From Alkalinema sp. RU_4_3 (GTDB lineage: Bacteria > Cyanobacteriota > Cyanobacteriia > Leptolyngbyales > Leptolyngbyaceae): a stretch of DNA of 62,401 nucleotides. Below the pieces are notes generated by a model, which was given only the letters and a program-made list of their open reading frames with translations, was not told the DNA's origin and ran no database searches. This document shows, in pieces, positions 10,362 to 53,531 of this stretch. Each line of letters opens with the position of its first letter. Within the stretch, counting starts at the first letter, position 1. Location of the stretch: assembly GCA_012031975.1 (NCBI GenBank), contig JAAUSA010000005.1, positions 1-62,401 of the forward strand, written 5' to 3'. The translations under genes were made by a program, and so were the position numbers.

Positions 10362-13300
10362 ATGGTGCGTTTCCCTAGTTCGTCTGCCTGGCTCTGCTCG
10401 ATCGCCCTATTCACCAGCACCATTAGCCTACCCGATCGAGTAACGGCCCAAATCACAGCGCCCAGTTCTCAAGCGACTCTCGCTACGGCAAAACAGCAGT
10501 ATCGGCGGGCTGACTTTGGGGGGCGATCGCCGCCTACCAGCAAATCCTGTCTTCTGGAACTGCAACGGACAAGGTAGAAGCCTTGCTACAGCTAGCGGAG
10601 ATGGATCTGTGGATGCAGAAGAGGCCGATCGCCGAGACGAAGATTCAGCAGGCTCTAAAGCTGGCTAAGGAAACTGGAAATAAGCAGGGAGAAGGGCGAT
10701 CGCTGTTCATGTTAGCGGCTGTGAAACGATATCGTGAAAACTATACCAAAGCAACGGAATTGCTGAATCAGGCATTGCCGATGCTTCAGGGGGTGGGCGA
10801 TCGCGAAGGAGAAGCCAGGGTTTACCTTCAGTTTGGCATCATTGATCACGCCCAAAAACAGTTCCCTCAGGCGCTAGAGAAGTTTGAAACGGCACTGAAA
10901 ACGGCCCAGGCTGGGAACCATCAAGATGATATGGCCCATTGCTATGACTGGCTAGCCGAAACCCAGCGGAGCCTGAAGAATATTCCGCAGGCTGAGGTGT
11001 TAATTCAACAGCAGCAGGAATTGAGTCGATCGATCGGCTATCGGTTGGCAGAATATGATGGACTGACGACCGTGATTAACCTTCAGACAGGGAAACAACA
11101 GTTTGCGGCAGCCAATGCTAGTCGGCAGCGGCAGCTAGAAATTATGCGATCGGCGGAGAATGTCTGGTTCCAAATCGAAATTTTGAGCTTGATGGGGTTT
11201 GATTTGCAGTCCCAAGCCAATGATGAGAGAAAACAAAGCAATTATGACTTGGCAGAAAAGCTGATATCCCAGTCCCAACTATTATTCCAACAGGCTGGGG
11301 ATCTCGCTCGCAAAATTGCTGACCCAGAGCGTGAACGGGTGACTTGGGATGGCCATAAGCAAGTATATGTTTGGCTGGGGTTTGTCAACATCGATCGCAG
11401 TTGGGCCTATGAGAAGAAGCAGGATTATATACAGGCAGATAGCTTGGCAATTAAGTCCCGTCAGGCGATGACGCAGGCGTTAGAAATTGCTCGGGAGAAA
11501 TTGCGCGATCGAACAGCGGAAGGAGAAGCGTTGGGTCACTTAGCCCAAACCTATATGCGCCGAGCCACTGTTGCCCACAAGGCTGGGCGTTACCAAGACC
11601 AACTCACTCATAATTTAGAAGCCCTCAAACTCGCGAATCAGTCCTTAGAAATGATCCAAGCTGGGAAACCTTCTCCGGAAGCACTAAAAATACCCAAGGA
11701 TTTAGTAGCCCTGGCACATTTTATGACACTGAGCAGCTATAACAGTACAGAACAATATGAAAAAGCGATTGAGTTTAGTACGGTTGCAAAGCTAATGGCT
11801 AAAGAATCTAGTGATCCAAAAATGGAGAGCAATATTGCTGGGGCACTTCATCTGAGCTATTTATCTTTAGCTGCTTCTGAAAACAATAAACTTCGCTATC
11901 CTGAGGCGATCGCTGCGGCCCAAGAAGGCATTAAATACGCCAGAATTATCAAAAATAGTGATTATGAAATTTCTCTAAGAGTTAACATGATCGCCATGGG
12001 CTATATTGCCCAAGGTAAATTCGATCGAGCCCTAGAGGAGGCCAATAAAGCCTTAGCGCAATCGCAGCAAGTCTCTAATCCAAGTGGTGTCATTCAATCG
12101 ATGCAGATACTTGCACTAATTCATTGGCGATTAGGCAACTATCCCCAAGCACTGAACTTTTCCCAGCAAGGATCAGAATTGAGTAAACAGAGCTATCATA
12201 GCTCTACCATTATAGGCAATCTATCAGCCATCTATGCCGACCAAGGGAATTATTCCCAGGCAAAGATTCTTCTTCAAGAGGCCTTTGATTTAGCGAAAAC
12301 CACCTGGGAGCAATATAAAAGAGGTGTTACTCCCGACAGTATTCAAGCCCTCTGTAGCATACTCCCTCACCTGAAAACGGGCTATGACTACTGCCAAAAA
12401 CCTGAAAAACTACCAACAGGCAGTGACTTAGATGAAATTAAAGGTCTAATCGATAGTCAGGCTAACTTGGGCCTGACAGGCATGGCCATAGGGTATCAGA
12501 ATCAGGCCGCTCTTGCCAAAATTCAGGGTGATTATCCAACAGCCCTGCAATTAAATCAAAAAGCTTTGGCAATTTTTACGGGACAAAAAGCCTACGATCG
12601 CATTGCCAATGCCCTAATTGGCATTGGGGCAGCCCATGGTGAGCTAGGCGACTACCAAAAAGCCTACGATTTTTCCCAGCAGGCGCTCAAGATTGCCCAG
12701 GATCATCGAACCCCCACCACCGAAATCGACTGTAACCAGCAGCTAGGCGTCATCGAACTGAACCGTGGCAACCTCGAATCTTCTCGTAAATTCCTCGATC
12801 GTGCCCTCACCCTCGCCAGAGAGAGCAAAGCACCCCTCAAGGAAAGTATTCTCCTCAGCATCATGGCCCACTACCACCGCTTTAGGGGCAATTACAGTGA
12901 GTCTCTAAACCTCAATCAACAGGCCCTACAACGCCAGGAAACCATGGGCCTCAAGCCAGCTATAGTCCAGACAATCATGCAAATTGGCGAAGTCTATACA
13001 GAACTCGGCGACTACTCGCAGGCCAACAATTATCACCAGCAATCCCTCCAACTGGCCCGATCGATCGGCAGTCAAAGCAGCGAAGTCTACAGCACCCTCA
13101 AACTCGCCGAAGCACAGCTCGCCGCCAAACAGTTTGACTCGGCAAAACGCAATTTCCAAAGAACTTTCCAACTCGCCGACCAAATCGGCCTTCAATGGCA
13201 AAAAGCTGCCGCACTCCAGGGCCTCGGAACCCTAGAACTGGCCCAATCCCGCCCCGCCGCTGCCATTCCCTTCTTCCAACAGGCCCTCACTCTCCAGCGC

Positions 13301-15145
13301 AAAATCGGTGCAAAACCCCGACAAGCCATGAGCTTAAATTACCTCGGCCAAGCCTACACCCAGCTACAGCAGTCCCCCCAAGCCACCCTCCAAGAAGCGC
13401 TCTCCCTAGCCCGTCAAGTTAGCGATCGCCCCACCGAAGCCCAAGTCCTAGCCAATCTAGCCGTTTTCCTAACGCCCGATCAGCCGGAACTGGCGATCGC
13501 CCTCTACAAAAAATCCATCAGCATCTACGAAGATATCCGCAAAGGCCTAGCACCCTTGCCAAAGGAGCAACAGAAAGCTTATACAGAAAGCATTGCCAAA
13601 ACCTACCGAGAACTGGCAGATTTATTACTCAAAAACGATCGCATCCTCGAAGCCCAACAAATCCTCGATCTATTGAAACTCCAGGAACTTAACGACTACC
13701 TTCGCAATGTCCGAGGCGGCAGCCAAGCGATTACCTTCCGTAAGGCCGAAACAGAACTTCTGGCCAAATTTAACAATAGTCAAACACCTGTCAACCAACT
13801 CATGCAACGGCTAGCCGAACTCCAAACTAAAGCCACCCTAACGCCCCAAGAAACCACTGAACTGAACAAACTCTACCAGCTCCAAAAAGACCTCACCCTC
13901 GACATCAACAAATTCTTCCAAGAAAACCCCGAAGTCCAAGCCCTGCGCAAACAGCTTCGCATTGAAGCGACCGTCCCCGATCCCGACCTTCTCCTCCAGC
14001 TCCAAAGCAGACTCGCCCAAACCAAAAACGCTGCGATCTTCTACCCAGCCATCTTCGACGATCGCCTAGAACTCATCTTGATCACCGCCGACACCCCACC
14101 CCTGCGCCGCACCGTCCCCCTCAAAAAAGGCGATCTCAACCGTGGCATCAACGACCTCCTCCTCGCCCTCAGCGATCCCCAAAGCCAACCCAAAGCCCCC
14201 GCCCAACAGCTCTACCAATGGCTGATCGCCCCAATCGCCTCCGATCTCAAAGCCGCCAACATCACAACCATCATCTACGCCCCCGACAGCAACCTCCGCT
14301 ACATCCCCCTCGCCGCCCTCCACGACGGCCAGAAATGGCTCACCCAAAGCTACCGCTTCAACATCATCACCGCCACCAGCATCACCAACCTAGAACCAAA
14401 ACCCCAAAATGCTCCCACAATTCTTGCCGGAGCCATTTCCAGCAATGCAGAACAAAACTACACCGTTGGCAACGCCATATTTAATGGCCTCCCCCACGCC
14501 AAAGAAGAAGTCGAAAATATCGCCGCAATTGTCCCAAACACCAATCAATTCATCGATCGCGCCTTCGACCTCACTACCCTAGAGAGCCGCTTCAACGGCT
14601 ACAACATCCTCCACTTCGCCACCCACGGCTACTTCGACATCGACAGCCAGGAAAAATCATTCCTCCTCTTCGGTGGCCAAACCAACGGTCAGAGCCAAAT
14701 CGCCACCCTAGCTGACATTAATAACTGGCGTCTATCCAAGGTCGATCTCGTGGTTTTAAGTGCCTGTCAGACCGGCCTATCCGATCGCCTACCCAGCCAA
14801 AAAGGCGACGGCAAAGAAATCCTCGGCCTCGGCTACCAATTCCAAAAAAGCGGCGCCAAAGCCACCCTCTCCTCCCTCTGGCGCGTCAGCGACCAGGGCA
14901 CCCAAGTCCTCATGGCCGCCTTTTACAAACACCTCACCACCGGAAAACTTTCCACCATCGCCGCCCTCCAACAGGCCCAAATCGACATGATCGAGGGCGA
15001 TCGCCCCTCACTTACCCAACTCAACCAAAACCGCGCCCTCACGGTCCACCAACCTCAACAAGGCCCTACCACCGTGACCTCTGACAAACCCCTGTCCCAT
15101 CCCTACTACTGGGCACCTTTTATCCTAATCGGCAACGGTTTGTAA
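10362..15145 (+). CDS. secreted TPR-CHAT caspase-like protease (frameshifted at 10518)
   Basis: Large protein (~1,590 aa) with an N-terminal signal peptide (SAWLCSIALFTSTISL, then VTAQ), more than twenty tetratricopeptide-type repeats, and a C-terminal CHAT protease domain. The first 52 codons and the rest lie in different frames around a six-G run at 10518-10523. Adding one G joins ADFGG to AIAAYQQILSSG. Repeats show TPR patterns such as GNYPQALNFSQQGSELSKQS and GDYQKAYDFSQQALKIAQ. The CHAT domain occupies about the last 380 residues. Its catalytic pair is His in LHFATHGYFD (codon 14624) and Cys in LVVLSACQTG (codon 14765), both intact. It is presumably exported, unlike the TPR-CHAT of type III-E CRISPR. 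Substrate is unknown. It ends facing a methyltransferase gene across a hairpin. Confidence 0.85.
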
Positions 15146-16851: not shown

Positions 16852-16877
16852 CGAATTGCTGCGATCGCAGCAATTCG
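16852..16877. promoter_or_regulatory. perfect 26-bp palindrome centred on HIP1
   Basis: The two 13-base halves are exact reverse complements, meeting in GCGATCGC (16861-16868). It lies in the 126-bp gap before the CHAT/sigma operon and ~50 bp ahead of its first start. It could be an operator or the stem of a terminator; no T-run follows. Confidence 0.45.
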
Positions 16878-16925
16878 ATCTTCCTTGGAAAAATAGTTAT
16901 AATAACCATGCTCTAGTAAATTGTG

Positions 16926-18277
16926 ATGTATATGCTTATAGGATTGCTGTCATCAATCATACATCCGGAATTACCACCACTGAGAACACCCTCCTTGGCT
17001 CCAATGGCGGCGGTATTGCCCAGTCCCCAGGCAACAAAGCTCAATCCTGTCCAGTTGGAAGCTGCCTTGAATCGTGGAGACTTAGGTGATGTATTGCAAC
17101 AGATCGAACTAGGCTGGAAATTTCAATACGAGGACTATTACCAGGGAAAACTGACCAGCCAATATCTCACCCTCGATCAGATTCAGCAGCGCCTCTATCA
17201 GATTAAAAAGCGCACGGGCAAGGCCACGGCATTAATTTATGCTGTCCCTGGAGCAAAACAGTTGGATCTCCTACTGGTTCCTCCTGAGGGTAAACCCCTT
17301 CACCGAAGAATCCAGAGCGCCGATCGCGAAACCCTCACCAAAACCCTCCAAGCCCTACGCATTGGCGTCGTCAACCCCAGTTCAGAACCCCAGGATTATC
17401 TGCCCGCCGCCCAGCAGCTCCACCAATGGCTGATCGCACCCCTGGAGAGCGATCTGAAGGCCCAGAAAATCGATACACTGATTTTCTGCATGGGTACGGG
17501 CCTGCGGAGTTTGCCCCTGGCCGCGATCCATGACGGGAAGCAATTTCTGGTCGAAAAATATAATCTGGCACTAATTCCTGCGTTTAATCTGCTCGATCAC
17601 AACCCTGCGGTCTTAAATGGCACAAAGGTACTTGCCATGGGGGCCTCGGAGTTTAAAGCTCAGCCGCCGCTGCCTGCCGTTGAATTGGAATTATCGATGA
17701 TTACCCAAGAGCGCCCCGGACGATCGCTGCTCAATCGAGAATTCACCTTAGAGAAACTTCAGGCAGAGCGATCGCGCTATCCCTTTGGGATTATTCACCT
17801 GGCCACCCATGCGGACATTTCTGCCCAGTCGGCCGAGGACTCGACCCTGCAATTTTGGGATCGCCCCTTCCCCTTGACCCAAATGAACCGTCTCAACTTT
17901 CGCGCGCCCTGGTCCAACTCCTAGTCCTGAGCGCCTGTCGCACGGCCCTGGGCAACCCCAAGGCAGAGCTGGGCTTTGCGGGTTTGTCGGTGCAGTCGGG
18001 GGCGAAGGCGACGATCGCCAGTCTCTGGTCCGTGGACGATCGGGGCACCTTGGTACTGATGTCCGAATTTTATCGTTCTTTAAAGACTGCCGACATTAAA
18101 GTCTCTGCCCTTCGACAGGCGCAGATTGCTATGCTAAAAGGAGATGTTACGCTCAATACGATCATTGATCGCTCCGGCGGCCTGCCATCGTCCAAGACGC
18201 TTGTCGAGACGGTGGATCGGAAGCTTTCCCACCCCTACTACTGGGCCGCCTTTACGCTCATCGGTAATCCCTGGTAG
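16926..18277 (+). CDS. CHAT-domain caspase-like protease (frameshifted at ~17907)
   Basis: First gene of the CHAT/sigma run, about 450 residues. The N-terminal ~100 residues are short and contain no TPR array. The rest is a CHAT domain: QYLTLDQIQQRL, ADRETLTKTLQ, HQWLIAPLESDLKA, GLRSLPLAAIHDG. Catalytic His is in IIHLATHADIS (codon 17808), catalytic Cys in LVLSACRTALG (codon 17936). The first frame stops at 17924 after RLNFRAPWSNS; adding one C in the CCC at 17907 restores RAPLVQLLVLSACRT and the standard SVQSGAKATIASLW C-terminus, ending YYWAAFTLIGNPW. GTG 16923 or ATG 16926 are both possible starts. Four bases separate it from the sigma-like gene. Confidence 0.8.
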
Positions 18278-18281
18278 CTCT

Positions 18282-19511
18282 ATGCAATCCCGTCATTCCC
18301 TGCTTGATCTGTTTTCTACTTTTCTTAACCTGAGCGACGATCGCGCCCAGGGTTGGCTCACCGATGGGCGTCTGCATCGCCATATGCAGCAGCACCTGGA
18401 TCAGAATGCCTCGGCGGCCGAGGACTTTTGGGTGGTCTATTGGCATCGCTATTGGCAGCAGGTGGGGCCGGAGGATAGGGTGCGATCGCGTATTTCTGAA
18501 GGGCATCTATCGGCCTACTTGCAAGAAACCTGCTATTGGTCCGTGCAGCGGGCCATGCCCAAAACTGGCAGTGGGCAGGTGCAATTATCGGACTGTTTTC
18601 AGGTGGCGATCGCCCAAATGCCGAAGCTATTGCGCAAATTTGATAGTTCCCAGCGTCCGAGTTTAAAGGCGTACGCCCACCGAGCCTTTGAGAACTTTGT
18701 GCGGGACCATCTGCGGCAGCGCCAGGAGGCCGATTGCTGTAGTGACTGGGGATTGCTGATTAAGGTGAGTCGGAAGCGGCTGTCGGAAGCCCTGAAACAG
18801 TCGGGTATGGCGGCGACGGACTGCGATCGGGTAATACTCGCTTGGAGTTGTTTTGAAGAATTGTATTTGCCAACGAAGGTGGCGGGGCTGCGCCAAACCA
18901 AGAGCCCAGATGTGGAGACTTGGCAGACCATCGCCGACGCCTACGATCGCCAACGCACCAGCCTCCAGCCCCCAGCCCCCGCCATGGCTCCGGCCCAGCT
19001 AGAACGGGATCTGCTACAGGCGGCCAAGCAGGTGCGGACTTTACTCTACCCGCCTTTAAAATCCCTTAATCTTCCAAAGGGCAACGACATCCCTGGGGAG
19101 ATCCAAGATGATCTGCCCGCCTCCGAGCAAGATTCCCTCCTGAGCAGCCTGATCCAGCAGGAGGACCTGGACGAGCGGCAGCAGCAACAGCAGCAAATGC
19201 AGGCCTTTCTGATCACAACGATCGCGACTCTGGGTCGGCAGGCCCAGGAATTGTTAACGCTCTATTACGGCCAGCGGCTTAAGCAGCAGCAAATTGCCCA
19301 GCACCTGAATATCCAGCAATACACCGTCTCCCGCCAGCTCAGCAAAGCCCGCGAAATCCTATTGTTAAGATTAGTGCAATGGGCCAACCAAACCTGGCAT
19401 ATTTCTGCCGATTCGAACGTGGTAGCTTCTATCAGCACGCTCCTAGAGGATTGGTTACAGTACCACTATGAGCTGGCATCTGCTGATACGACTTCACTTG
19501 AGGGCTCCTAA
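18282..19511 (+). CDS. sigma-70-like transcription factor (cyanobacterial CHAT-linked type)
   Basis: A 409-residue protein. The N-terminal half has a helical region resembling sigma region 2 (LKAYAHRAFENFVRDHLRQR). The C-terminus has a region-4-type helix-turn-helix: AQELLTLYYGQRLKQQQIAQ, then HLNIQQYTVSRQLSKAREI. A glutamine-rich linker (DERQQQQQQMQ) lies before it. It is longer and more diverged than group 1-3 sigma factors. The frame is open from 18144, but ATG 18282 is four bases after the CHAT stop and begins the recognisable protein (MQSRHSLLDLFSTFLNLS). Only three bases separate it from DUF1822, so these genes are tightly coupled. Sigma activity is inferred from the HTH and context. 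Confidence 0.65.
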   Translation: MQSRHSLLDLFSTFLNLSDDRAQGWLTDGRLHRHMQQHLDQNASAAEDFWVVYWHRYWQQVGPEDRVRSRISEGHLSAYLQETCYWSVQRAMPKTGSGQVQLSDCFQVAIAQMPKLLRKFDSSQRPSLKAYAHRAFENFVRDHLRQRQEADCCSDWGLLIKVSRKRLSEALKQSGMAATDCDRVILAWSCFEELYLPTKVAGLRQTKSPDVETWQTIADAYDRQRTSLQPPAPAMAPAQLERDLLQAAKQVRTLLYPPLKSLNLPKGNDIPGEIQDDLPASEQDSLLSSLIQQEDLDERQQQQQQMQAFLITTIATLGRQAQELLTLYYGQRLKQQQIAQHLNIQQYTVSRQLSKAREILLLRLVQWANQTWHISADSNVVASISTLLEDWLQYHYELASADTTSLEGS

Positions 19512-19514
19512 GCT

Positions 19515-20633
19515 ATGTATATCACCCCGACGCAATGGCAAATCGAGATACCAGATGCGATCGCCCAGACGGCTTGGCGTAAAAGTAAGGTCTGCCCCAC
19601 CCCCCAGGCCCAGTGGAACACCTATCTCAATCAACTCTCCTGTGACGTCCTCCTGCCGTTGCTCCAGGACTATCTTCCGACCGCGACGCGCTATCCCGAT
19701 GGCATCGCCACGATCTGGGAAGTCGTCTCAGGCACAGGCCTCCAAGGACCAGTCAAGCGCATGGTCCTGGTGCCGGACAAAAACATCGATCGCGAATTAT
19801 CCGTGCCCCAGGAGTGGGTGGATAGCCCGGAATGGGCGGGGGATTACTATTTGGCGGTCCAGATCAATCCCGATGAACAGTCTCTGACGGTCTGGGGCTA
19901 TGCCACCCATACCATGCTCAAGGCCGGGGCCTACCATGCGGCCGATCGCACCTATCATTTGGAGGCGGATCAAGTCATTCAGGATCTCAACGTCCTCTGG
20001 GTCACCCAGCAGATGAATTTCCAGGAAGTGACCCAGGGCGCCATCGCACCGATCCAGCCGATTGCCACCGCTGAAAATCTACTGCAGAGACTGGCCCGCA
20101 GTCCTCGCCCCAGGTTGGAAATTCCCTTTGTGCAGTGGATGGCCTGTCTACACCAGCCGGATTGGCGGCGGCGTCTATCCGCCCTGCGCCGTGGGGAGCC
20201 GCCCAAGGTGAACCACCTCAGTCAATGGTTCCAGAATATCTTTGAAGCAGGCTGGGCAGTCATCGACAACCCGTTGATCTATGAGGCCCCCGCCCTGCGC
20301 CAAAACTCAGCGATCGATGCCCCGATCATCCGGCGGGTCAAGGCCCTACAATTGCACGATCGCTCTCTTTTCTTGATGATGACCGTAGAGCCGACCCCCG
20401 ATGGTCGCCTAGAGGTGCAGGTGCAGGTGCGATCGAGGGATGAGGAGACCCGACTGCCCCTAGGTCTAATCGTCACGTTGCAATCTTCATCAGGCGAAAC
20501 CATTCAGATGGTGCAAGCGCTGCCTGAGGATTTGGCGGTGCAGCTCCAGCGGTTTCGCTCTAATACGGGCACGCCGTTTTTGGTGCAGGTAGAATGGGAT
20601 GGTGATCGCGCTGAAGAGCTATTTATGGTCTAG
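19515..20633 (+). CDS. DUF1822 family protein
   Basis: A 372-residue protein of the cyanobacterial DUF1822 family. Recognisable parts are TPTQWQIEIPDAIAQTAWRK at the start, a central segment with GYATHTMLKAGAYHAADRTY, and a C-terminal beta-rich part. No signal peptide or membrane helix, so it is cytosolic. It sits between the sigma-like gene (3 bp) and the CHAT/CHASE2 gene (2 bp). Molecular role is unknown; position suggests a partner or inhibitor of the sigma-like protein or a CHAT substrate. Confidence 0.75.
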   Translation: MYITPTQWQIEIPDAIAQTAWRKSKVCPTPQAQWNTYLNQLSCDVLLPLLQDYLPTATRYPDGIATIWEVVSGTGLQGPVKRMVLVPDKNIDRELSVPQEWVDSPEWAGDYYLAVQINPDEQSLTVWGYATHTMLKAGAYHAADRTYHLEADQVIQDLNVLWVTQQMNFQEVTQGAIAPIQPIATAENLLQRLARSPRPRLEIPFVQWMACLHQPDWRRRLSALRRGEPPKVNHLSQWFQNIFEAGWAVIDNPLIYEAPALRQNSAIDAPIIRRVKALQLHDRSLFLMMTVEPTPDGRLEVQVQVRSRDEETRLPLGLIVTLQSSSGETIQMVQALPEDLAVQLQRFRSNTGTPFLVQVEWDGDRAEELFMV

Positions 20634-20635
20634 CA

Positions 20636-22950
20636 ATGGAATTTCTAGTCGTATTAAATTTTGGTCGAGGTGATATTCAAAGCGGTTTTACGACGGTGAA
20701 TGCTCAGTTGTGGGAGGGGGATCGGCCCCAGCCCATGCAATTTACGGGTAGCCTACCCGGCATACAGGTGCTGTCACAATTGGATCAGCGCTGGCGATCG
20801 CTCTATGGTCATCTCTACAGCCAATTCAAGCGGGGGGAGTTTGAAATCGTTGAAACGGATGTGACCCATATTTCCTTGGAGGCCTTTGATGGCACCTGTG
20901 ATCAGTTGCGGCAGCAGTTGAACGGCTGGTTGAAGCTGCCTTCGTTTCAGAATATTGAGCAGCAGTTGCGCACAAGGCTCAATCCGAGCGATGCCATTCG
21001 GTTGATTATCATGGCGGAAGATCCAGCATTATTGCAATTGCCCTGGCATCTGTGGCAGTTTCTCGATGACTATCCCCAGGCGGAAATCGCCCTGAGTCCG
21101 CCGGAATATAGTCGATCGACGGGAGCACCCCAGACCAAACGCCAGAATCAAGTCAAGGTTTTAGCGATTCTAGGAGACAGTCAGGGGATTGATATCAGCG
21201 CAGATCGCCGATTGCTCCAGCAATTGCCCCATGCATCGGTTTGTTTTCTGGTGGAACCCACGACCCAGGAATTAACGCAGCGCTTGTGGGAGCCGGGCTG
21301 GGATATGTTATTTTTTGCGGGCCATAGTTCCAGTCGGGGCAAGGGGGTAATTCAGATTAATGCCCAGGAAAGTCTGGCTATCGATCAGCTCAAATATAGC
21401 CTGCGCCAGGCGATTAATCAGGGTTTGAAACTGGCGATCTTTAATTCCTGCGATGGATTAGGGCTGGCACGGGATCTGTCCGATCTGCATCTGCCCCAGG
21501 TGATCGTCATGCGCGAACCCGTGCCCGATCGCGTCGCTCAACTCTTTCTCAAACAATTTCTGACGGCCTTCTCCTCCGGTAAATCGCTCTATCAATCCGT
21601 TCGCCAAGCGCGGGAACAGCTCCAGGCCATTGAGTCCCAATTCCCCTGTGCCACCTGGCTCCCCGTAATTTGCCAAAACCCCTCCGAGGCCCCACCGCGC
21701 TGGCAGGATTGGCATCGGGGAACAAAGGTGCGATCGCCCCGCAGCAAAAACAGGCGATCGCCGCAGCGTTGTTAAGTGGTTTCGTCACCACGGCGGTCGT
21801 GGGGGTGGTTCGCACTGTGGGCTGGCTACAAACGACGGAATTGGCGCTGTACGATCAATTTCTGCGATCGCGACCCATGGAGCCACCGGACCCCCGTTTG
21901 CTGATTGTCACGGTTACGGATCAAGATATTCAAGCCCAGGGCGCGGAGCCGAGGCGGGGGTCCCTGAGCGATCGCAACCTTGCGCAATTGCTCAATGCCT
22001 TAGAGGCGGCGAATCCCAGGGTGATTGGGCTGGATATCTATCGCGACTTCCCGGCAGCCCAGCCCGCCTTGGCGAAAATCTTAGCCCAGAACGATCGCCT
22101 CATTAGCATTTGCAAACGCCCCGATCCGAAGGACAATCCCGTGGGTATTTTGCCGCCGCCCGAAATGCCCGCTAGCCAAATTGGCTTTAGTGATTTTGTC
22201 CAGGACCCCGATGGTAGCCTGCGGCGACAGCTCCTGACCATGACGAATAATCCCGCTTCCCATTGCACCGCCGCCTATGCCTTCAGTACCCAACTGGCCC
22301 TGCGTTATCTGGCAGAGGATGGCATTACCGCCAGTTTTACAGATAAAGGCGACCTGGTGTTAAAACAACGGCAATTTCAACGGCTGAGCGATCGCTTTAG
22401 CGGCTATCAGACAATCGACAATCGCGGCCTCCAGATGCTCTTAAACTACCGCCAGACCGCTTCACCCCAGGAGATTGCCCCGGTGGTCACCCTAGGCGAA
22501 CTCCTCGCGGGCCAGGTCAATCCCAAATCCATTGAAGATCGCATTGTCCTGATTGGGGTGGCTTCGGCGACCAGTGGGGATAATTGGTCCACACCCTACG
22601 GTCGATCGTTTTCGAGTCGGGTACCGGGGGTCGTGGTGCAGGCCCATATGACCAGTCAAATTCTGAGTGCGGAGATCGATCGCCGTCCCCTGATCCAGGC
22701 CTGGCCTCTCTGGCAGGACTATCTCTGGGTGCTCGCTTGGGGCATCGTGGGTGGGTTGCTGAGTATGCTATTACACCGATGGGTTTGGCTCCTAGGGGCG
22801 ATCGTCTTGGTTTTGGTTATTTTAGTTAGTATGGGTTGGGTGCTGTTTTTAAGGGGAGTTTGGATCCCGATCGCACCGCCCGTCATGACGCTGGTCCTGA
22901 GCAGCCTGATTGCCCCCAATCTCCGTCTCTCCAAAGGTAATGCCCCATGA
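20636..22950 (+). CDS. CHAT-CHASE2 transmembrane receptor-protease (frameshifted at ~21726)
   Basis: The first frame (20636-21775) is a CHAT protease with His in MLFFAGHSSSRG and Cys in LAIFNSCDGLGLARDL. The second (overlapping frame, to 22950) begins with a transmembrane helix (ALLSGFVTTAVVGVVRTVGW), then a CHASE2 sensor domain (LALYDQFLRSRP, NPRVIGLDIYRDFPA, DRIVLIGVASAT), then three more helices. The 106-bp overlap is too long for two genes, and one added G near 21726 fuses them. CHASE2 is an extracytoplasmic sensor, so the protease domain would face the cytoplasm beside the sigma-like factor and DUF1822. If truly split, the CHASE2 part would lack an effector. Confidence 0.8.
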
Positions 22951-23636
22951 TGATTCGGTCCATCCTCATACTGACACTTTTGCTGGGCGGCCAGGGGATT
23001 GCACCTGTCCTAGCGGCCCCGGCGGCTAAACCTAAGGTCCGCCCTCGGATCCGCTGGCAGCCACCTATTCCGCCGAATTTAGGCGATCCAGGGGGGCGCG
23101 GCCAGGGCGGCGGCAGTCGAGGTGACTGCGAGGAATACTACGAAGGGGCCTCAGCGGTATTGCCCCCGTCGCAATGGGGTTTGACCACGTTGGAATATCC
23201 GACGGTCTGGCTGAATCTGCCGAAGGGAATCAAAGCCCAGGTACCCGTGGAATTTGTGTTAAAGGATGCTCAAGGGAAGGTCCTCTTCAAAGAAATCGCC
23301 GATGCGACACAGACGCCTGCTGGAATAAATCCTTTTCCTTTGCCAACCCGTGCCCCAGCACTCCAGGTGAATCAGCAATACAGCTGGTCGATCGCCATCT
23401 ACTGCGATGCGGCCGTCCCGGACAAACCTGTGGTGATTCGAGGGGCGATCGGGCGATCGGCCTTATCTTCCCTCGCTAAAACCCGTCTAGCCCAGAGTTT
23501 GGATGCGATCGATCGCGCTACAATTTATGCCGAACAGGGCTTTTGGTATGATGCGTTAACGATGTTGGGAATGGAGCAGCGATCGAGTGGAGAAGCGGCG
23601 ATTGTTTGGGAGGATTTATTGAAGCAGGCCAATTGA
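22947..23636 (+). CDS. DUF928 family secreted protein
   Basis: A 229-residue protein with signal peptide MIRSILILTLLLGGQGIA (cleavage probably after VLAA). The mature part carries the DUF928 core: GLTTLEYPTVWLNLPKG, YSWSIAIYCDA and IDRATIYAEQGFWYDALTML. Its ATG overlaps the TGA of the CHAT/CHASE2 gene (ATGA), so it is translated as part of that operon. DUF928 proteins are regularly found next to CHASE2 or CHAT genes in cyanobacteria; the function is unknown. A periplasmic location makes it a possible ligand or modulator of the CHASE2 sensor. Confidence 0.75.
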   Translation: MMIRSILILTLLLGGQGIAPVLAAPAAKPKVRPRIRWQPPIPPNLGDPGGRGQGGGSRGDCEEYYEGASAVLPPSQWGLTTLEYPTVWLNLPKGIKAQVPVEFVLKDAQGKVLFKEIADATQTPAGINPFPLPTRAPALQVNQQYSWSIAIYCDAAVPDKPVVIRGAIGRSALSSLAKTRLAQSLDAIDRATIYAEQGFWYDALTMLGMEQRSSGEAAIVWEDLLKQAN

Positions 23637-23771: not shown

Positions 23772-24560
23772 ATGGTTTCACCCTTTCCAGGCATGGACCC
23801 CTATCTCGAACAACCCGCCTTCTGGTCCTCCTTCCATAGCAAATTTGTAGTGGCCATGGCGGATGCGATCGAGGAACAGCTAGGCTCTGCCTACTACGTA
23901 GAAGTAGAAACGCGTAGCTACTTAGACGAAGAAGAGACCAGGCTGCTAGTTGGCATTCCTGATGTAGGTGTTGTCCTAGGCACCACAGCAGATTCGGCGA
24001 CGGAATCTAAAAGGGCAATAGCAGTTGCTGAACCCATGGCGAGTCTTCAGCAGGTAACACTGCCGATTCCAGCCTTTGTGAAAGAGCGTTATCTAGAGAT
24101 TCGAGAAGTCAGCTCTGACTCAGTGATTACGGCGATCGAGCTACTATCTCCAAAAAATAAACGCTCTGGAGATGGTCGCAAAAGCTATGAAAACAAGCGG
24201 GCCTTAATTCTCGGGAGTTTGACCCATTTGGTGGAGATTGACCTGCTGCGGGCTGGGGTAAAGATGCCCATGGAATCCATACAATCGCGATCAGATTACA
24301 ACATTCTAATCAGCCGTAGCCAACGGCGTCCTCAAGCTGATTTATACAGTTTTACAATTAGGGATCGTCTTCCCACGCTTCCCATTCCCCTGACGGAGGA
24401 AGAGCCAGAACTCACCATAGATTTACAGGCCGTTTTTGCCGGGGTCTATGGGCGATCGCGATATCACCAACGGATAGACTACGGGCAACCGCTGCCACCA
24501 CCAAATCTACAACCCGCCGATCAAGCTTGGGTGAAACAGTTATTGGCTGTAAAAAAATGA
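23772..24560 (+). CDS. DUF4058 family protein
   Basis: A 262-residue member of DUF4058, starting with the hallmark FPGMDPYLEQPAFWSSFHSKF. Other family features are RYLEIREVSSDSVITAIELL and SPKNKRSGDGRKSYENKR. The E-x-L-S-P-x-N-K block recalls the core of PD-(D/E)XK-type nuclease folds, but no activity is established. Single gene, ending 22 bp from the convergent devC stop. Confidence 0.85.
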   Translation: MVSPFPGMDPYLEQPAFWSSFHSKFVVAMADAIEEQLGSAYYVEVETRSYLDEEETRLLVGIPDVGVVLGTTADSATESKRAIAVAEPMASLQQVTLPIPAFVKERYLEIREVSSDSVITAIELLSPKNKRSGDGRKSYENKRALILGSLTHLVEIDLLRAGVKMPMESIQSRSDYNILISRSQRRPQADLYSFTIRDRLPTLPIPLTEEEPELTIDLQAVFAGVYGRSRYHQRIDYGQPLPPPNLQPADQAWVKQLLAVKK

Positions 24561-24582
24561 ATCTAATTGATTCGCGGAAGCC

Positions 24583-25823
24583 CTAGAAAATATCCGCTGG
24601 ATCGGCATCCGCCACCTTTCGCACGGCGATCGCCCCGAAACCATGCACATAATAATCGTCAAAATCAACACCGTAATTGCCCGACTCAGGGTCATCGAAA
24701 TCGGCAGCGCCGTCGCGCCCTTAGTAATGCCGTACATGCCATTGCTGAGCAGATAGCCCGGAATGTAGCCCATCACCGACAGCATTAAGGCCTCCTGAAA
24801 CACCACACTTAGCAGATAGCGGTTTTTATAGCCCATCGCCTTGAGCGTTGCATATTCTGCCAGGTGATCGGCCACATCCGTATAGAGAATCTGATAGACG
24901 ATCACAATCCCGACAATAAACCCGATCACTGTTCCTAGGCCGAAAATAAATCCGATCCCCGTCCCCGTTTCCCAATACTTCCGCTCCGTGTCAATAAAAG
25001 CCGCCCGCGATAGCACCCGCACATCCCCCACCACAAAATCACCCCGCGATTCCTCGGGCTTCAATAAAGGATTGACCTTGAGACTTCCCGGCAAAGCTTT
25101 GCGCATGTCATCGAGGGCCTTGCCCAAATCCGCACCGGGCTTGAGCTTGATACTGCCGATATCAATTTTACCCGCCTCCCGATTCGTGAAAATCCGCCGA
25201 AAGGTCTCCGCACTCACCAGCATATTGCCATCCGCCCCGAAGGAGGCCCCTAGCTGAAAAATGCCGTCTACCATCAGTTTTCGGCCTTCGACCTCAACAT
25301 TTAAGGGTTGATTGGTCTGTTGGAATGCGGTGAACTTCTCAGCGATCGGCCCAAATTCCTCCCGCGATTGTTTGTCAAATAGCAGCGTATCTTTAATTCG
25401 AAGTTTTTCCTGGAGCGATTTATCAAAACCAGGCAAGCTCAAAACATCATCATTCGGATCGATGCCGATCGCCATGATGCTACGGGTTTGGGGTTTTGGC
25501 AAGCCTTCCCAAAAGGGGTTTTTCCAGATGCCGAAGCCGATCATTAGGGGACTGACATCCTCCACGCCTTCAACGCCGAGGGCGGGATAGAGGCGGCGAT
25601 CGGAAAAACTCTTCATGGAGATCAAAGAGGTCGATTGTGAACTGATCACAAAAATATCGCCCTGCAATCCCTGATGAAACGTCACCGCACTCTCGAACAG
25701 TGCATCCTTAAAGCCCAACTGCACAAACATCAAAATCACAGCAAAGCCAATGCCCGCCAGGGCCACTAGCAATCGCACCAGCTCCCGCTTCAGTTGTAAC
25801 CAAGCCAATGGAATCGCAAACAT
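24583..25823 (-). CDS. devC: DevC-like ABC transporter permease (frameshifted at 24633)
   Basis: Permease of a DevBCA-type (heterocyst glycolipid exporter-like) tripartite efflux ABC system. N-terminal MFAIPLAWLQLKRELVRLLV, a long periplasmic domain (residues ~50-290), then membrane segments including FGLGTVIGFIVGIVIVYQIL; LAEYATLKAMGY is the MacB/FtsX-type signature. The frame as read ends at 24540 with an atypical tail. Adding one G in the run at 24633-24636 gives MCMVSGAIAVRKVADADPAD and a stop at 24583, the usual DevC end. devB lies 8 bp upstream in the same operon; the ATPase devA is not adjacent. Confidence 0.85.
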
Positions 25824-31004: not shown

Positions 31005-31732
31005 ATGAACACCATGACTGAACCGATTATTGCCATCGATCGCGTCTGCCACTATTTCGGCAAGGGCAATCTGCGCAAGCAGATTTTGTTTGACATCACA
31101 ACAAGGATCGATCCGGGGGAGGTGGTGATCATGACCGGGCCTTCGGGGTCGGGGAAGACGACGCTCTTGACCTTAATTGGCGCCCTGCGATCGACCCAGG
31201 AAGGCAGTATGCGGGTGTTTGGGTCGGAGCTAAGGCAGGCCTCGGAGGCAAGTCTTGTGGCCCTGCGGCGCAATATTGGCTATATTTTCAGGCCCATAAT
31301 CTGCTCAAGTCCTTGACGGCCCAGCAGAATGTGATGATGTCCCTGGAATTGCATGAACATTTGACCGCCGTTGAGGCCCGTAGCCGCGCCATGGAAATGC
31401 TAGATGCCGTGGGGTTGGGAGATTTTGGCAATGCTTTTCCCGATCAACTGTCCGGGGGACAGAAGCAGCGGGTGGCGATCGCCAGGGCGCTCGTTGCAAA
31501 CCCTCGGCTGATCCTGGCCGATGAACCCACGGCGGCCCTGGATAAAAAGTCGGGCCGGGATGCGGTGGAGATTATGCGGCGACTGGCCAAGGAAAAGGGG
31601 TCGGCGGTGGTGCTGGTCACCCATGACAATCGAATTTTGGACATTGCCGATCGCCTAATCAACATGGAAGATGGCTATCTGGAGTCCTACGGCATGGATC
31701 AGGCAGCCCAAATTCAGGCCTCCTCGGCCTAG
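31005..31732 (+). CDS. devA: DevA-like ABC transporter ATP-binding protein (frameshifted at ~31289)
   Basis: ATPase of a DevBCA/LolD-type exporter. Walker A is MTGPSGSGKTTLLTLIG in the first frame (31005-31316), the signature motif LSGGQKQRVAIARALV and Walker B LILADEPTAALD in the second (31313-31732). At 31289 TTTTCAGG reads IFRPIICSS; inserting one C gives IFQAHNLLKSLTAQQNVMMS, the normal Q-loop and following helix. So one gene, ~242 aa. It lies 6 bp after ppk1 and ~4 kb from devB/devC, which are on the opposite strand. Confidence 0.85.
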
Positions 31733-46950: not shown

Positions 46951-48215
46951 CTAAATCCCTCTCCCCAGAGAGAGGGATTTTGAGGTTTTGCTGGCTTCTT
47001 GTTCTATTATTTGCGGTTCCCATTTTTCTAGGATTGCGGCATTGGCTACATTGCCGATCACGTTAAGTAGGGTGTGGAAACTGTCCATGAGGCGATCGAC
47101 CCCTGCTAGTATTGCTACCCCTTCTAAAGGCAAACCCGCTGCGGTGAAAATTGTGGTCATCATGACAATCCCGGCTCCGGGGATTCCAGCGGTGCTAAAG
47201 GAAACCAAGAGCGTACTCAAGGCGACCGCAGACAGTAAACTTGGGGTGAGTTCAATGTCATAGAGCTGGGCGATGAACAGAGCATTAAACGCCTGTCCCA
47301 CGGCCATACCATCGCGTTTCAGGGCGGTTCCCAGGGGAATGGCGAAACTGGCGATGGCGCTAGACATTCCATAGTTCTCCTGGGCGTTTTTTAATGCGAT
47401 CGGTAATGCTGCATTAGAACTAGCGGTGCCAAACGCTAGGGACAGGCTAGGGAAGAGGCTACGGAAGAAATTTAGGGGATGACTGTTGCAGAGTTTTAAT
47501 ATCACTGCATAGAACAGAATCATTAGGGTAATTGCGCCAACGACACCGACCATATAGGTGGCGAGTTTGAGTAAAATACCGATGCCTTGGACGGCTATTA
47601 CCGAGGCCAGTCAGGGACAAAACCCGACGGGGCGAGGTAGAGGATTAAATATAAAATCTCTTCGCTGATGGTGTAGATGCTTTCAATTAAGGCCACGAAG
47701 GGTTTAGCTTTGTCTGCGGCTTTCTGGATGCCGATGCCGATGATCGCGCCGGAGAGGATGGTTTGGAGGAGGTTGCTGTTGCTGAGGGCTTGTAATGGGT
47801 TGGTGGGGATGAGTTCTATTAGCCAGGTGAGGAGGTCGGGGGCTTGTTGGGCGGTGAGGGTCGCTTTAGTGGTGATACCGACCATACCGTTGCCGGGGTG
47901 AAGGACAATGGCGCAGGTTATGCCGAGGGTGACGGCGATGCTGCTGGTGAGAAGGTAGAGCGTGAGAAGTTTTAGCGTGTAGCGTCCGACTTGGGCGGCG
48001 TCTTGGATGCGGGTAAGACCTAGGATGAGTGAGGAGAAGACGATCGGGACGACGACGAACTGGATAAGTCGCAGGAAGGCTTGTCCGAGGGGGGCGAGGA
48101 GGTAGTGATCAACTGGGATGATGTAGTCAGGAAAGATCTCATGGAGTCCGGATCCAAAGAGGATGCCTGCACCGAGGGCGAGCAAAATGAAGGTGGAAAG
48201 GTTCATCGATTTCAA
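46951..48215 (-). CDS. dicarboxylate/glutamate:cation symporter, DAACS family (broken near 47610)
   Basis: The N-terminal frame (48215 to 47598) reads STFILLALGAGILFGSGLHE and RLIQFVVVPIVFSSLILGLT; the C-terminal frame (47553 to 46951) has SLAFGTASSNAALPIALKNA, the hallmark serine-rich hairpin, and IPGAGIVMMTTIFTAAGLPL. Together they give ~405 aa, the normal size. At ~47610 (CCGTCGGGTTTTGTCC) the frame is lost; reconciling both sides seems to need more than one base change, unlike other breaks in this window, so true decay is possible. Flanked by direct repeats. Confidence 0.75.
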
Positions 48216-49956: not shown

Positions 49957-51677
49957 TTAAACCGCCCCCATCCCCGACTTCCGATGCAACACCGCCGTCA
50001 CCCCCTTCGGCTCAATCACCCGCCCCTGATTCACCACCGCATACACCAACCAGTGATCCCCACAATCCAACCGATTTTGCACCGTACACTCCAGATACGC
50101 CAACGCCTCCTGCAACGCCGGAGCCCCACTCCGCGTCACCTCCATCGCCACATTCTCAAACGGATCAGCCCCCGCCACCAACTTCTGGAAATGCCGCCGC
50201 AGACTCCCACCCTCCCGCAACACATTCAACACAAACTGATCCCCCGCATGATCCAACGTACCCTCCACCAACTCCTTCGGCAAAGCCACCGTCAACCCCG
50301 GCGGATTAAACGTCGCCTGGGACACCCAAGACGTCAGCACAGCCATCTTCATATCCCCCCTTGCCAGCGTCGCCACACAAAGCGACCCCACCACCCGCCC
50401 GATCGCCTGCTCCGTCCGACCACCCTCCTGCGCCCCTTCGGAGCCCGCTCCTTCTGCGATCGCTTCAGCGCCAAAGCAAAATTCTCCCCCGCCTTCGTAC
50501 AATCTGACAGCGCCTCAGGTGTCGGCTTAAACTTCACCCGCAACGTCTCAAACCCCAACGGATACCCCGCATTCACCAGCTTCGTCTCCAACAGATCCAC
50601 CGCCTCCCCACTCCAGCCATAGGACCCAAACACCCCCGCCAACTTCGTCTTAGAAGCATTCGCCAAAATCAACCCCAACGCCGTCTGAATCTGCGTCGGC
50701 GCATGGCCCCCCAGCGTCGGCGACCCAATAATAAAACTATCGCACTGCTCCACCGCCGCCGCGATCTCCACCGGGTCCGCATACTCACAATCCAGCGACT
50801 CCACATAGACCCCAGACTGCGTGAGACCCAGCGCGATCGCCTGAGCCATCATCCCCGTATTCCCATAGGCCGACGTATACATCAACACCACCGACAACGC
50901 CTTCTGCTTCTGATTCGTACACCAATCGCGATAGTCCATAATCAAGCGACTGACACTGAAGCGCGCGATCGGACCATGCCCCACCGCCAAAATCTTCGGC
51001 TGACACAGAGCCACCTTATCTAAGGCATCATCCACCTGCTTCGCCTGGGCCGCATGGATCGTATCGAAATAATGCTGGCGATCGTCCCCAAGGGCCTTCC
51101 AATTCTCATCAAAAATCGCATCCCCACAAACATGCGCCCCAAATAACTTATCCGAATAGAGCACCTGAGTTGCCGGATCGAACACCATAATCCCATCGGG
51201 CAAGCGCGGTGTCGGCTTCGTGAATATTTTCAATTCATGGCCTTCCCCGATATCAATAATGTCTCCCGATCGCACCACCAAAATTTCCAATTCCAAATCT
51301 GGTATCGCCGCCTTCAGTGTATTGGCCGCAGGTTTCGAGCAGACAATCTTGGCCCGGTACGTCAACGGAATCAGCGCCTTCAGCGTAGCAATCCGATTCG
51401 CATTAACGTGAGTGAGAATAATATATTCCACCTGCTGATAATACTCATGCTGCTGAAAGCCATCAATGAATAGTTCCGTAAACGATTCCCCCGGCGGATC
51501 GATCAGCGCCACTTCCCTTGCCTGAATCAAATAAGTATTAACAGTCGTACCCTGCCCCCGCGAATACTCCGCCTCAAACTTCAGCCGATCCCAAGTCCGC
51601 GATCGAAACACCGTCGTCTTCTGGGCGATCTCACCCACCTGAACATCCCGAGAACGAGCAGCAGCAGTTACAGTCAT
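49957..51677 (-). CDS. flv1: flavodiiron protein Flv1 (frameshifted at 50433)
   Basis: Photoreduces O2 to water with Flv3, as an electron outlet after photosystem I. The N-terminal SRDVQVGEIAQKTTVFRSRT matches cyanobacterial Flv1. The beta-lactamase-like domain has non-canonical metal residues (ILTHVNANRIATL instead of HxExDH), a known trait of Flv1/Flv2. Then flavodoxin (MYTSAYGNTGMMAQAI, IGSPTLGGHAPTQIQTAL) and the cyanobacterial C-terminal NAD(P)H:flavin reductase-like domain (IGRVVGSLCVATLARGDMKM, LECTVQNRLDCGDHWLVYAV). The frame breaks at the four-C run 50433-50436; one extra base rejoins RAPKG to AQEGGRTEQAIGRVV. Total ~573 aa. Confidence 0.9.
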
Positions 51678-51801
51678 GACGTCATACTTCTAATAGGGCA
51701 ACCGAAAGCAAACCACCAATCCACCATCTCCCCCAGTTCAAAGCCCCCAAACTATAGCCTTTCAGGCATTCAAGAAAGGGGGTTGGAGGCCTCTTCCCAA
51801 T

Positions 51802-53531
51802 CTAATAATGATTCCCAACCTTCCGATGATGCACCGCCGTCAACGCATCCAAATTAGAAACCCGACCCAAATCAACGATCGCATAGACCAACCAATGATC
51901 ACTACATTCCATCCTTGTAACCACCTCGCATTCCAAATAGGCCAGAGCATCCGTCAAAATCGGCGACCCATTCACCGCCACCTCCGTCTCAATATCGGCA
52001 AACCGATCGGCCCCCGGCGCAAACCGCTTCAGAAAATGCTTCATTAAGGTCTGGTAGTTCCCCTCCTCCAAAATATTCAACACAAACCGATCGCCCACCT
52101 TCATCAGCGACTCGATCGCCCGATCCTTAGCAACGGCGATCGTCAACCCCAACGGCTTCACACTCGCCTGCGACACCCAAGAGGCCAGCATCGCACTCTT
52201 CACATCCCCCTTCTGGGCCGTAATAATATAAAGCCCACCGCTCAGACGCCCCAATGCCTTATCCAGGTCATTATCCAGCGCCTTCATCTGCTTCACCGCC
52301 TTATCCCGCGTCAGCCACTGGCCCAAATCCGTACCCGACTCCTCACAGAGCTGATAGGTCGCCTCCGTCGGCTCCCCCGTAATCCGAATCGGCACAAAGG
52401 CCTCCGTAATTCCCAAGGACTGAATCCGACTGCGCAGCGTATCCACAGGTTCATCATCCCCACCCGCCGACTCATACATTCCCACAGCCTGCTTCGGTCC
52501 CGCCGTCGCAATAATCGTACTCAGCAACGTGCCCACCTGGGACCCCAACTCCCCTGACTGCGGCGGCATCGCGATCACAATCCCATTCGCCATCGAGGTA
52601 TATTCCCTGACTTCTACAGGCTCGGCAAACCGCAGATCGATCGCCTCCACAATCACCCCAGTCTTAGCAATCCCCCGTTGAATCGCCTCCCCGAGCTTTT
52701 CACCCTCGCCATAACCCGACGTATAGAAGAGCGCCACATTCGTCGCAATCTTCACCTGGTCCTGGCTCCAGGTTTGATAACGCCCCACCAATTCCGCCAC
52801 ATGATTGCGAATCAAAGGACCATGGCCCGTCGCGATCGTCTCAATCCCCGGCAAATCCCCCATCCGCTTAATCGCCGACAGCACCGATCGCGCATTCGGC
52901 CCCATCAGACAGTCATAGTAAATCTTGTAATCCGGCCCAATCAACGCCAAATCCTCATCAAACAACTGGTCATCACAGAAATGCATCCCAAAGGCATCAC
53001 AGGTAAACAGATGTTTCGTCCTATGGTCATAGGTAAAATCGTATCCGGCCAATGCAAATTTGGAGCCGTGCAAAACTCCAACTCATGGCCATTGCCCAAA
53101 TCCAGCTTATCGCCGCTCTTTACCTGCACTGACTTATATTCCTGATGCACCAACTCGCCCAGGAACTGGTGGGCCACCTTCGCCGCATAGACCACAATCT
53201 CTGGATTCAAGGCCAGTAGATCCTTAATCAAACCACTATGATCCGGCTCGGTGTGGCTAACGATTAAATAATCAATTTTCTTCGGATCAATCAACCGTTG
53301 CAATTCCGGCAGAAAGGTATCCCGAAACTTCTCATGGGAGGTATCAACCAAAGCAACCCTCTCGCCCCGAATTAGAAAGGCATTGTAGGTCGTGCCATTT
53401 TCTAGCGGGAACTCAATATCAAAGCGATCGCGATCCCAGTCCAGGGACCGAATCACCGTCGTATCAACGGCAATCTCTGAACTTTGAATCGTCAACCGAG
53501 TTTTCTTGGGACGAGCAATGGAAGCAACCAT
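51802..53531 (-). CDS. flv3: flavodiiron protein Flv3 (frameshifted at 53035)
   Basis: Partner of Flv1 in O2 photoreduction. Canonical diiron ligands are present in IVSHTEPDHSGLIKD (HxExDH), with APNLHWPDTI and later HGPL. Flavodoxin segment LFYTSGYGEGEKLGEAIQRG and C-terminal flavin-reductase domain GGLYIITAQKGDVKSAMLAS are as in other Flv3 proteins; the terminal ALTAVHHRKVGNHY is characteristic. The frame breaks at a four-A run 53035-53038 (T4 on the coding strand); one added T joins HWPDTI to FTYDHRTKHLFTCDAFG. About 576 aa. It lies ~125 bp upstream of flv1, same strand. Confidence 0.9.

Follow-up and report, generated by a model that had tools for sequence, protein, structure and literature searches.

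A conserved cyanobacterial sigma factor-DUF1822 operon with a CHAT-CHASE2 receptor protease and a candidate cleavage site in DUF1822

The 62,401-nucleotide stretch of DNA analysed here (the window) comprises positions 1 to 62,401 of contig JAAUSA010000005.1, from the draft assembly GCA_012031975.1 of the cyanobacterium Alkalinema sp. RU_4_3, and it carries an operon in which the genes for two CHAT proteases, a sigma factor and a membrane sensor stand side by side. Five genes lie on the plus strand, separated by gaps of 4, 3, 2 and -4 bp: a stand-alone CHAT protease gene (CHAT1, 16923..18277), a gene for a sigma-70 family factor of 409 aa (18282..19511), a gene for a DUF1822 protein of 372 aa (19515..20633), the receptor protease gene CHAT2-CHASE2, of the EACC2-caspase-CHASE2 type (20636..22950), and a DUF928 gene (22947..23636). 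Pfam matches run across the operon in the order CHAT, sigma70 r2 and r4, DUF1822 (PF08852, E 1.9e-72), CHAT, CHASE2 (E 2e-65) and DUF928 (E 4e-38). The original prediction, made from the sequence letters and translated open reading frames (ORFs), had described these five genes with the same order, spacing and families, and had drawn attention to a sensor, a protease and a sigma output united in a single operon. The ORF positions and the Pfam matches bear it out in each of these respects, and the operon is conserved.

The sigma factor and DUF1822 together form the minimal conserved unit, which the receptor protease often joins. In a scan of named genomes that covered 45 sigma loci from many cyanobacterial genera, DUF1822 lies directly after the sigma gene in 43, and in one of the two exceptions (L036) a contig end interrupts the locus; across 58 related genomes, DUF1822 is found immediately downstream and on the same strand for 57 of 64 sigma matches. 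CHAT2-CHASE2 is present at 23 of the 45 named loci, as one ORF and usually followed by DUF928. Among the DUF1822 matches listed for the related genomes, 88 of 150 adjoin a CHAT2-like gene and 57 of 150 adjoin this sigma factor. Most of the sampled DUF1822 genes that are not paired with this sigma factor have an ORF of about 230 aa upstream, with weak matches to sigma region 2 and region 4. Profile comparison of these ORFs with the long sigma family gave no significance beyond the helix-turn-helix, so their identity as sigma factors rests on the weak Pfam matches and on position. Stand-alone CHAT1 genes adjoining sigma or DUF1822 recur in about a dozen genomes, and the identical five-gene order is found in Pantanalinema (L001/L102). 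The gene set is widespread among cyanobacteria, closed genomes included, with up to 17 DUF1822 matches per genome. At one locus (L103:7615-8232) an additional partial DUF1822 of 206 aa, perhaps a remnant of duplication, lies between CHAT1 and CHAT2-CHASE2.

A gene set of this kind has already been predicted in print as a signalling system. The relevant section of Kaur et al. (eLife 2021, PMC8195603) describes EACC2-caspase proteins with variable C-termini, CHASE2 among them, encoded beside ECF (extracytoplasmic function) sigma and DUF1822 genes, and proposes that autoactivation of the caspase leads to control of transcription. The original prediction knew of no assigned mechanism for the association, but a mechanistic suggestion has been available in that section since 2021. 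The operon shares with the published system an N-terminal module, a caspase-like domain, a variable C-terminal sensor and the sigma and DUF1822 neighbours. It differs in that its sigma factor is a sigma-70 protein of about 400 aa and not a minimal ECF factor, and that section includes neither an exported CHAT1, nor DUF928, nor the linker arginine described below. The same section calls DUF1822 a TPR protein, whereas the model obtained here contains no TPR.

That model, an AlphaFold2 prediction built on 74 sequences (predicted local distance difference test score, pLDDT, 91.8; predicted template modelling score, pTM, 0.82), gives DUF1822, from N- to C-terminus, an alpha/beta part, a helical middle, a flexible linker and a beta-sandwich. 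The linker spans about residues 249-268 (20259..20319), and residues 251-270 have the lowest pLDDT of the model, 54-60. Hydropathy analysis reveals no hydrophobic or membrane segment, and DUF1822 is thus predicted to be a soluble two-domain protein, a description that is new here. Two other identities were considered and rejected: a membrane anchor, for want of any hydrophobic segment, and a TPR protein, as Pfam finds DUF1822 only and the model consists of alpha/beta, short helical and beta-sandwich parts. A fold search of the PDB returned no match at E <= 1e-3, the best being generic beta-sandwiches, and no known anti-sigma domain was matched.

Within the linker lies an arginine, Arg262 (codon 20298-20300), that stands out from its surroundings. 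Among 101 non-redundant DUF1822 homologues with a median pairwise identity of 33 percent, it is kept in 97 and forms the fourth most conserved column of the protein; the remaining linker columns have a median conservation of 0.28. The residue is present in 50 of 50 DUF1822 proteins encoded next to a receptor protease vs 47 of 51 others, a difference that is not significant, and one of the four sequences without it is truncated. At L078/L105 and at L135, the last of which is near a contig end, DUF1822 has no linker arginine and no receptor protease gene was found alongside. The flanking positions favor small or hydrophobic residues at P3-P2 and Ser, Gln or Gly at P1', while the spacing of the arginine is variable and its neighbours are little constrained. 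This pattern makes Arg262 a candidate P1 cleavage site, one that is newly put forward here. The suggestion in the original prediction that DUF1822 might be a cleaved anchor or anti-sigma protein survives in part: the flexible linker and its near-invariant arginine fit a protease substrate, but the absence of a hydrophobic segment speaks against a membrane anchor.

If DUF1822 is cut, the protease responsible would more plausibly be the receptor than CHAT1. The CHAT2 domain occupies residues 110-334 of the receptor and follows a conserved N-terminal module whose position and length agree with those of EACC2, its candidate identity. Its catalytic residues, His230 and Cys272, are both kept in all 51 homologues compared and lie together in the intact N-terminal frame of the Alkalinema gene, and the receptor CHAT is probably an active protease. 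A conserved glutamate, E294, aligns, albeit weakly, to the Trp of the SLW strand in ordinary CHAT domains, and is compatible with a basic P1 residue, no more. From the domain order and what is known of CHASE2, the CHAT2 domain should be cytoplasmic and CHASE2 outside. By contrast, CHAT1 begins with an N-terminal hydrophobic segment, and a signal-like or membrane segment opens most of the orthologues whose N-terminus is complete, according to hydropathy readings rather than a trained signal-peptide predictor. CHAT1 is thus more likely to lie outside the cytoplasm than to be the protease that meets DUF1822, and the part of cytoplasmic protease given to it by the original prediction would fall to the receptor's own CHAT domain. 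DUF928 has an N-terminal signal-like segment by the same kind of reading and is probably exported as well.

Other receptor-type CHAT proteins have Peripla_BP_6 as the C-terminal part, or no CHASE2 there. The Alkalinema genome, which has 54 CHAT-domain matches, encodes a receptor-type CHAT protein in which a periplasmic binding protein domain replaces CHASE2 (L111:201-2678), and also a protein with pentapeptide repeats followed by a CHAT domain, adjoining a DUF1822 gene (L110:604-3630).

The sigma factor matches TIGR02937 in NCBIfam at 96.6 bits, and both its sequence matches in the PDB and its structure matches are sigma factors; it is longer than a minimal ECF factor and has conserved extensions at the N-terminus and the C-terminus (LEEWLQ). 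The gene directly downstream of an alternative sigma factor is commonly that of its anti-sigma factor. For ECF sigma genes in particular, the anti-sigma factor is commonly encoded just downstream (PMC2758279). The co-directional adjacency of such pairs is seen here in the 43 of 45 and 57 of 64 loci counted above, and on balance we favor the idea that DUF1822 controls the sigma factor.

Precedents for such an arrangement exist in bacteria. The CHAT protease Csx29 cleaves Csx30, which inhibits a sigma factor (PMC10028731), and this type III-E system (Craspase or CASP) resembles the present operon in bringing a CHAT protease, an adjoining protein and a sigma factor together in one locus and in tying protease output to transcription. 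The two differ in that activation is by RNA in Craspase and would be by a membrane receptor here, and the tests made showed no relationship between DUF1822 and Csx30. The window sigma factor scores 20.6 bits against the CASP sigma family NF041236, below the 100-bit cut-off, and a Pfam search limited to the operon found no Cas7-11/gRAMP effector among its gene products. The type III-E TPR-CHAT analogy drawn by the original prediction is therefore one of mechanism only and not of family membership. A TPR-CHAT protein of 1520 aa is encoded upstream of the operon, at 10583-15145. A second precedent is HetF of heterocyst-forming cyanobacteria, a membrane CHAT protein whose protease activity can cleave the regulator PatU3 (reviewed in PMC8406250). 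The likeness lies in a CHAT-bearing membrane protein and the cleavage of a regulator; HetF is, however, drawn as CHAT-TM (transmembrane)-TPR without CHASE2, and against the HetF equivalog NF045509 the protein from the window reaches 19.8 bits, below the 1200-bit cut-off. As membership is found in neither case, Csx29-Csx30-sigma and HetF-PatU3 serve as mechanistic precedents only. The operon also shares with systems of the RseA/DegS and RsiW type the general scheme of envelope signal, protease and sigma release, but in those systems the anti-sigma factor is membrane-bound and cut at the membrane, whereas DUF1822 lacks a membrane segment and the cutting here would fall to a caspase-like cytoplasmic domain. 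As for the residue cut, cleavage after Arg is known from separase, to which CHAT is more closely related than to any other eukaryotic protein (PMC9729208).

Taken together, these features suggest a relay from the cell envelope to transcription. CHASE2 would detect an extracytoplasmic signal, perhaps with the aid of DUF928 and CHAT1 as exported proteins, and the signal would switch on the CHAT domain that the same receptor carries in the cytoplasm. The receptor CHAT would then cut soluble DUF1822 after Arg262 in the flexible linker, parting the alpha/beta-helical part from the beta-sandwich, and the cut would alter how DUF1822 holds the sigma factor of the preceding gene, most probably by setting it free. 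For the general scheme, in which a receptor protease acts on DUF1822 to control the sigma factor, irrespective of whether every detail holds, we estimate a probability of roughly 0.42. That DUF1822 is the substrate of the receptor CHAT has about an even chance; should it be so, a cut at Arg262 is quite likely.

Several observations weigh against this scheme. Roughly every second sigma-DUF1822 pair lacks an adjoining receptor protease, and one genome (G047) has three such pairs (L096, L113 and L114) in which the arginine is kept, though it contains no CHAT2-like gene; it does have six long CHAT ORFs, none of them CHAT2-like. Csx29 does not cut after Arg, and the Asp with which separase reads P1 Arg is Lys in Csx29 (PMC9729208). 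Nor did modelling place DUF1822 on the sigma factor, the complex to which the original prediction had looked. The two genes are in the same frame, so the read-through chain was folded as one protein with AlphaFold2; each part came out folded (pLDDT 86.7), but the model gives no confident placement of one relative to the other (pTM 0.47). The alignment had little depth and few paired entries, with 7 other read-through chains and 50 unpaired sequences, and the result is accordingly a weak negative on the interface. The mirror-tree correlation is high, but this is expected for linked genes and proves nothing about binding. Finally, both CHAT genes are frameshifted in the assembly, so their protease activity in this strain is putative.

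The best of the competing explanations, though an unlikely one, is partner switching in which DUF1822 is never cut. DUF1822 would link the receptor to the sigma factor as an adaptor, Arg262 and its linker would dock CHAT or sigma, and the protease would act on itself or on some other protein, as in activation by autopeptidase activity. Such autoactivation of the caspase is what Kaur et al. propose in the section cited above, docking motifs can take the form of a conserved residue in a flexible linker, and the retention of the arginine in G047, where the receptor protease is missing, fits docking. Yet a single strongly conserved linker residue, with variable spacing and loose neighbours, fits a P1 position better than a docking site.

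The sign of the regulation is a separate matter. DUF1822 might be a positive cofactor, such as a sigma activator or a promoter-specificity partner, with proteolysis shutting the response off. The data are compatible with either sign, and DUF1822 has no recognisable anti-sigma fold; against this stands the tendency of genes right after alternative sigma factors to encode anti-sigma factors (PMC2758279 for ECF factors), and we consider a positive role rather unlikely.

Less probable still is a system for biological conflict or programmed cell death, in which an immune or suicide caspase with many targets would act while the sigma factor induces effectors after infection or damage. Kaur et al., in that same section, group EACC2-caspase proteins with immunity- and apoptosis-linked systems, and the abundance of paralogues per genome, with their varied sensor domains, is in keeping with such a role. 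That said, no PADLOC-DB defence model was matched by any operon protein tested, the operon has no toxin or nuclease gene, and its wide distribution, which extends to closed genomes, is at odds with it.

The state of the two CHAT genes in the assembly bears on a last alternative. A one-base frameshift near 17905-17915 divides CHAT1 into ORFs 16923-17924 and 17855-18277, and another near 21710-21760 breaks CHAT2-CHASE2, which leaves CHAT2 in 20636-21775 and CHASE2 in a different frame, 21670-22950. The original prediction took His and Cys to be intact in both CHAT domains; this is right for CHAT2, but in CHAT1, where both motifs are present, the Cys half (LSACRTA) sits in ORF 17855-18277, in another frame than the His. 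Each break is the loss of one base at or beside a short homopolymer. CHAT1 is a single unbroken ORF in L001, L098, L099 and L103, as is CHAT2-CHASE2 in about twenty of the named loci; in the Alkalinema genome, two of three sigma paralogues also carry a frameshift and three ABC ATPases, one of them inside the window, are broken likewise. Given these single-ORF orthologues and the same breaks in unrelated genes, both are likely assembly errors of the draft, and programmed frameshifting was rejected on the same grounds. That the operon is decaying in this strain, with CHAT1 and CHAT2-CHASE2 as true pseudogenes and only sigma, DUF1822 and DUF928 functional, is very unlikely: both CHAT genes are indeed frameshifted in the sequence as given, but so are unrelated genes of the window and genome, ABC and SDF transporters included, the breaks fall at or beside homopolymers, and catalytic residues are conserved on either side of them.

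Elsewhere in the window, an ABC transporter ATPase domain at 31092-31534 is spread over two frames and a sodium:dicarboxylate (SDF) symporter at 46951-48215 is divided between two ORFs that match complementary stretches of its family, each likely a draft frameshift; the C-terminal end of a DevC-like permease (24540-25823) looks frame-shifted by eye, from the translation. A tandem pair of flavodiiron-like proteins (ODP/beta-lactamase, flavodoxin and flavin reductase) is encoded at 49957-53531.

The operon, then, is real, widely conserved and of a kind already predicted in print, while the chain from signal to sigma factor is what we infer from it. The sharpest new element is the near-invariant arginine in the flexible linker of DUF1822, which turns a protease-substrate idea confined to one published sentence into something testable by a single mutation. 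The boldest extension, that DUF1822 represents a new class of protease-cleaved sigma regulator served by Arg-specific, separase-like receptor-caspases with swappable sensors, giving one-step signalling through many channels, is doubtful. If the relay is true, however, cyanobacteria would possess a large modular family of receptor-caspases acting on transcription via one conserved cut, a caspase-fold protease would be at work in routine signalling, apart from cell death and CRISPR, and the widespread DUF1822, so far a domain of unknown function, would be given one.

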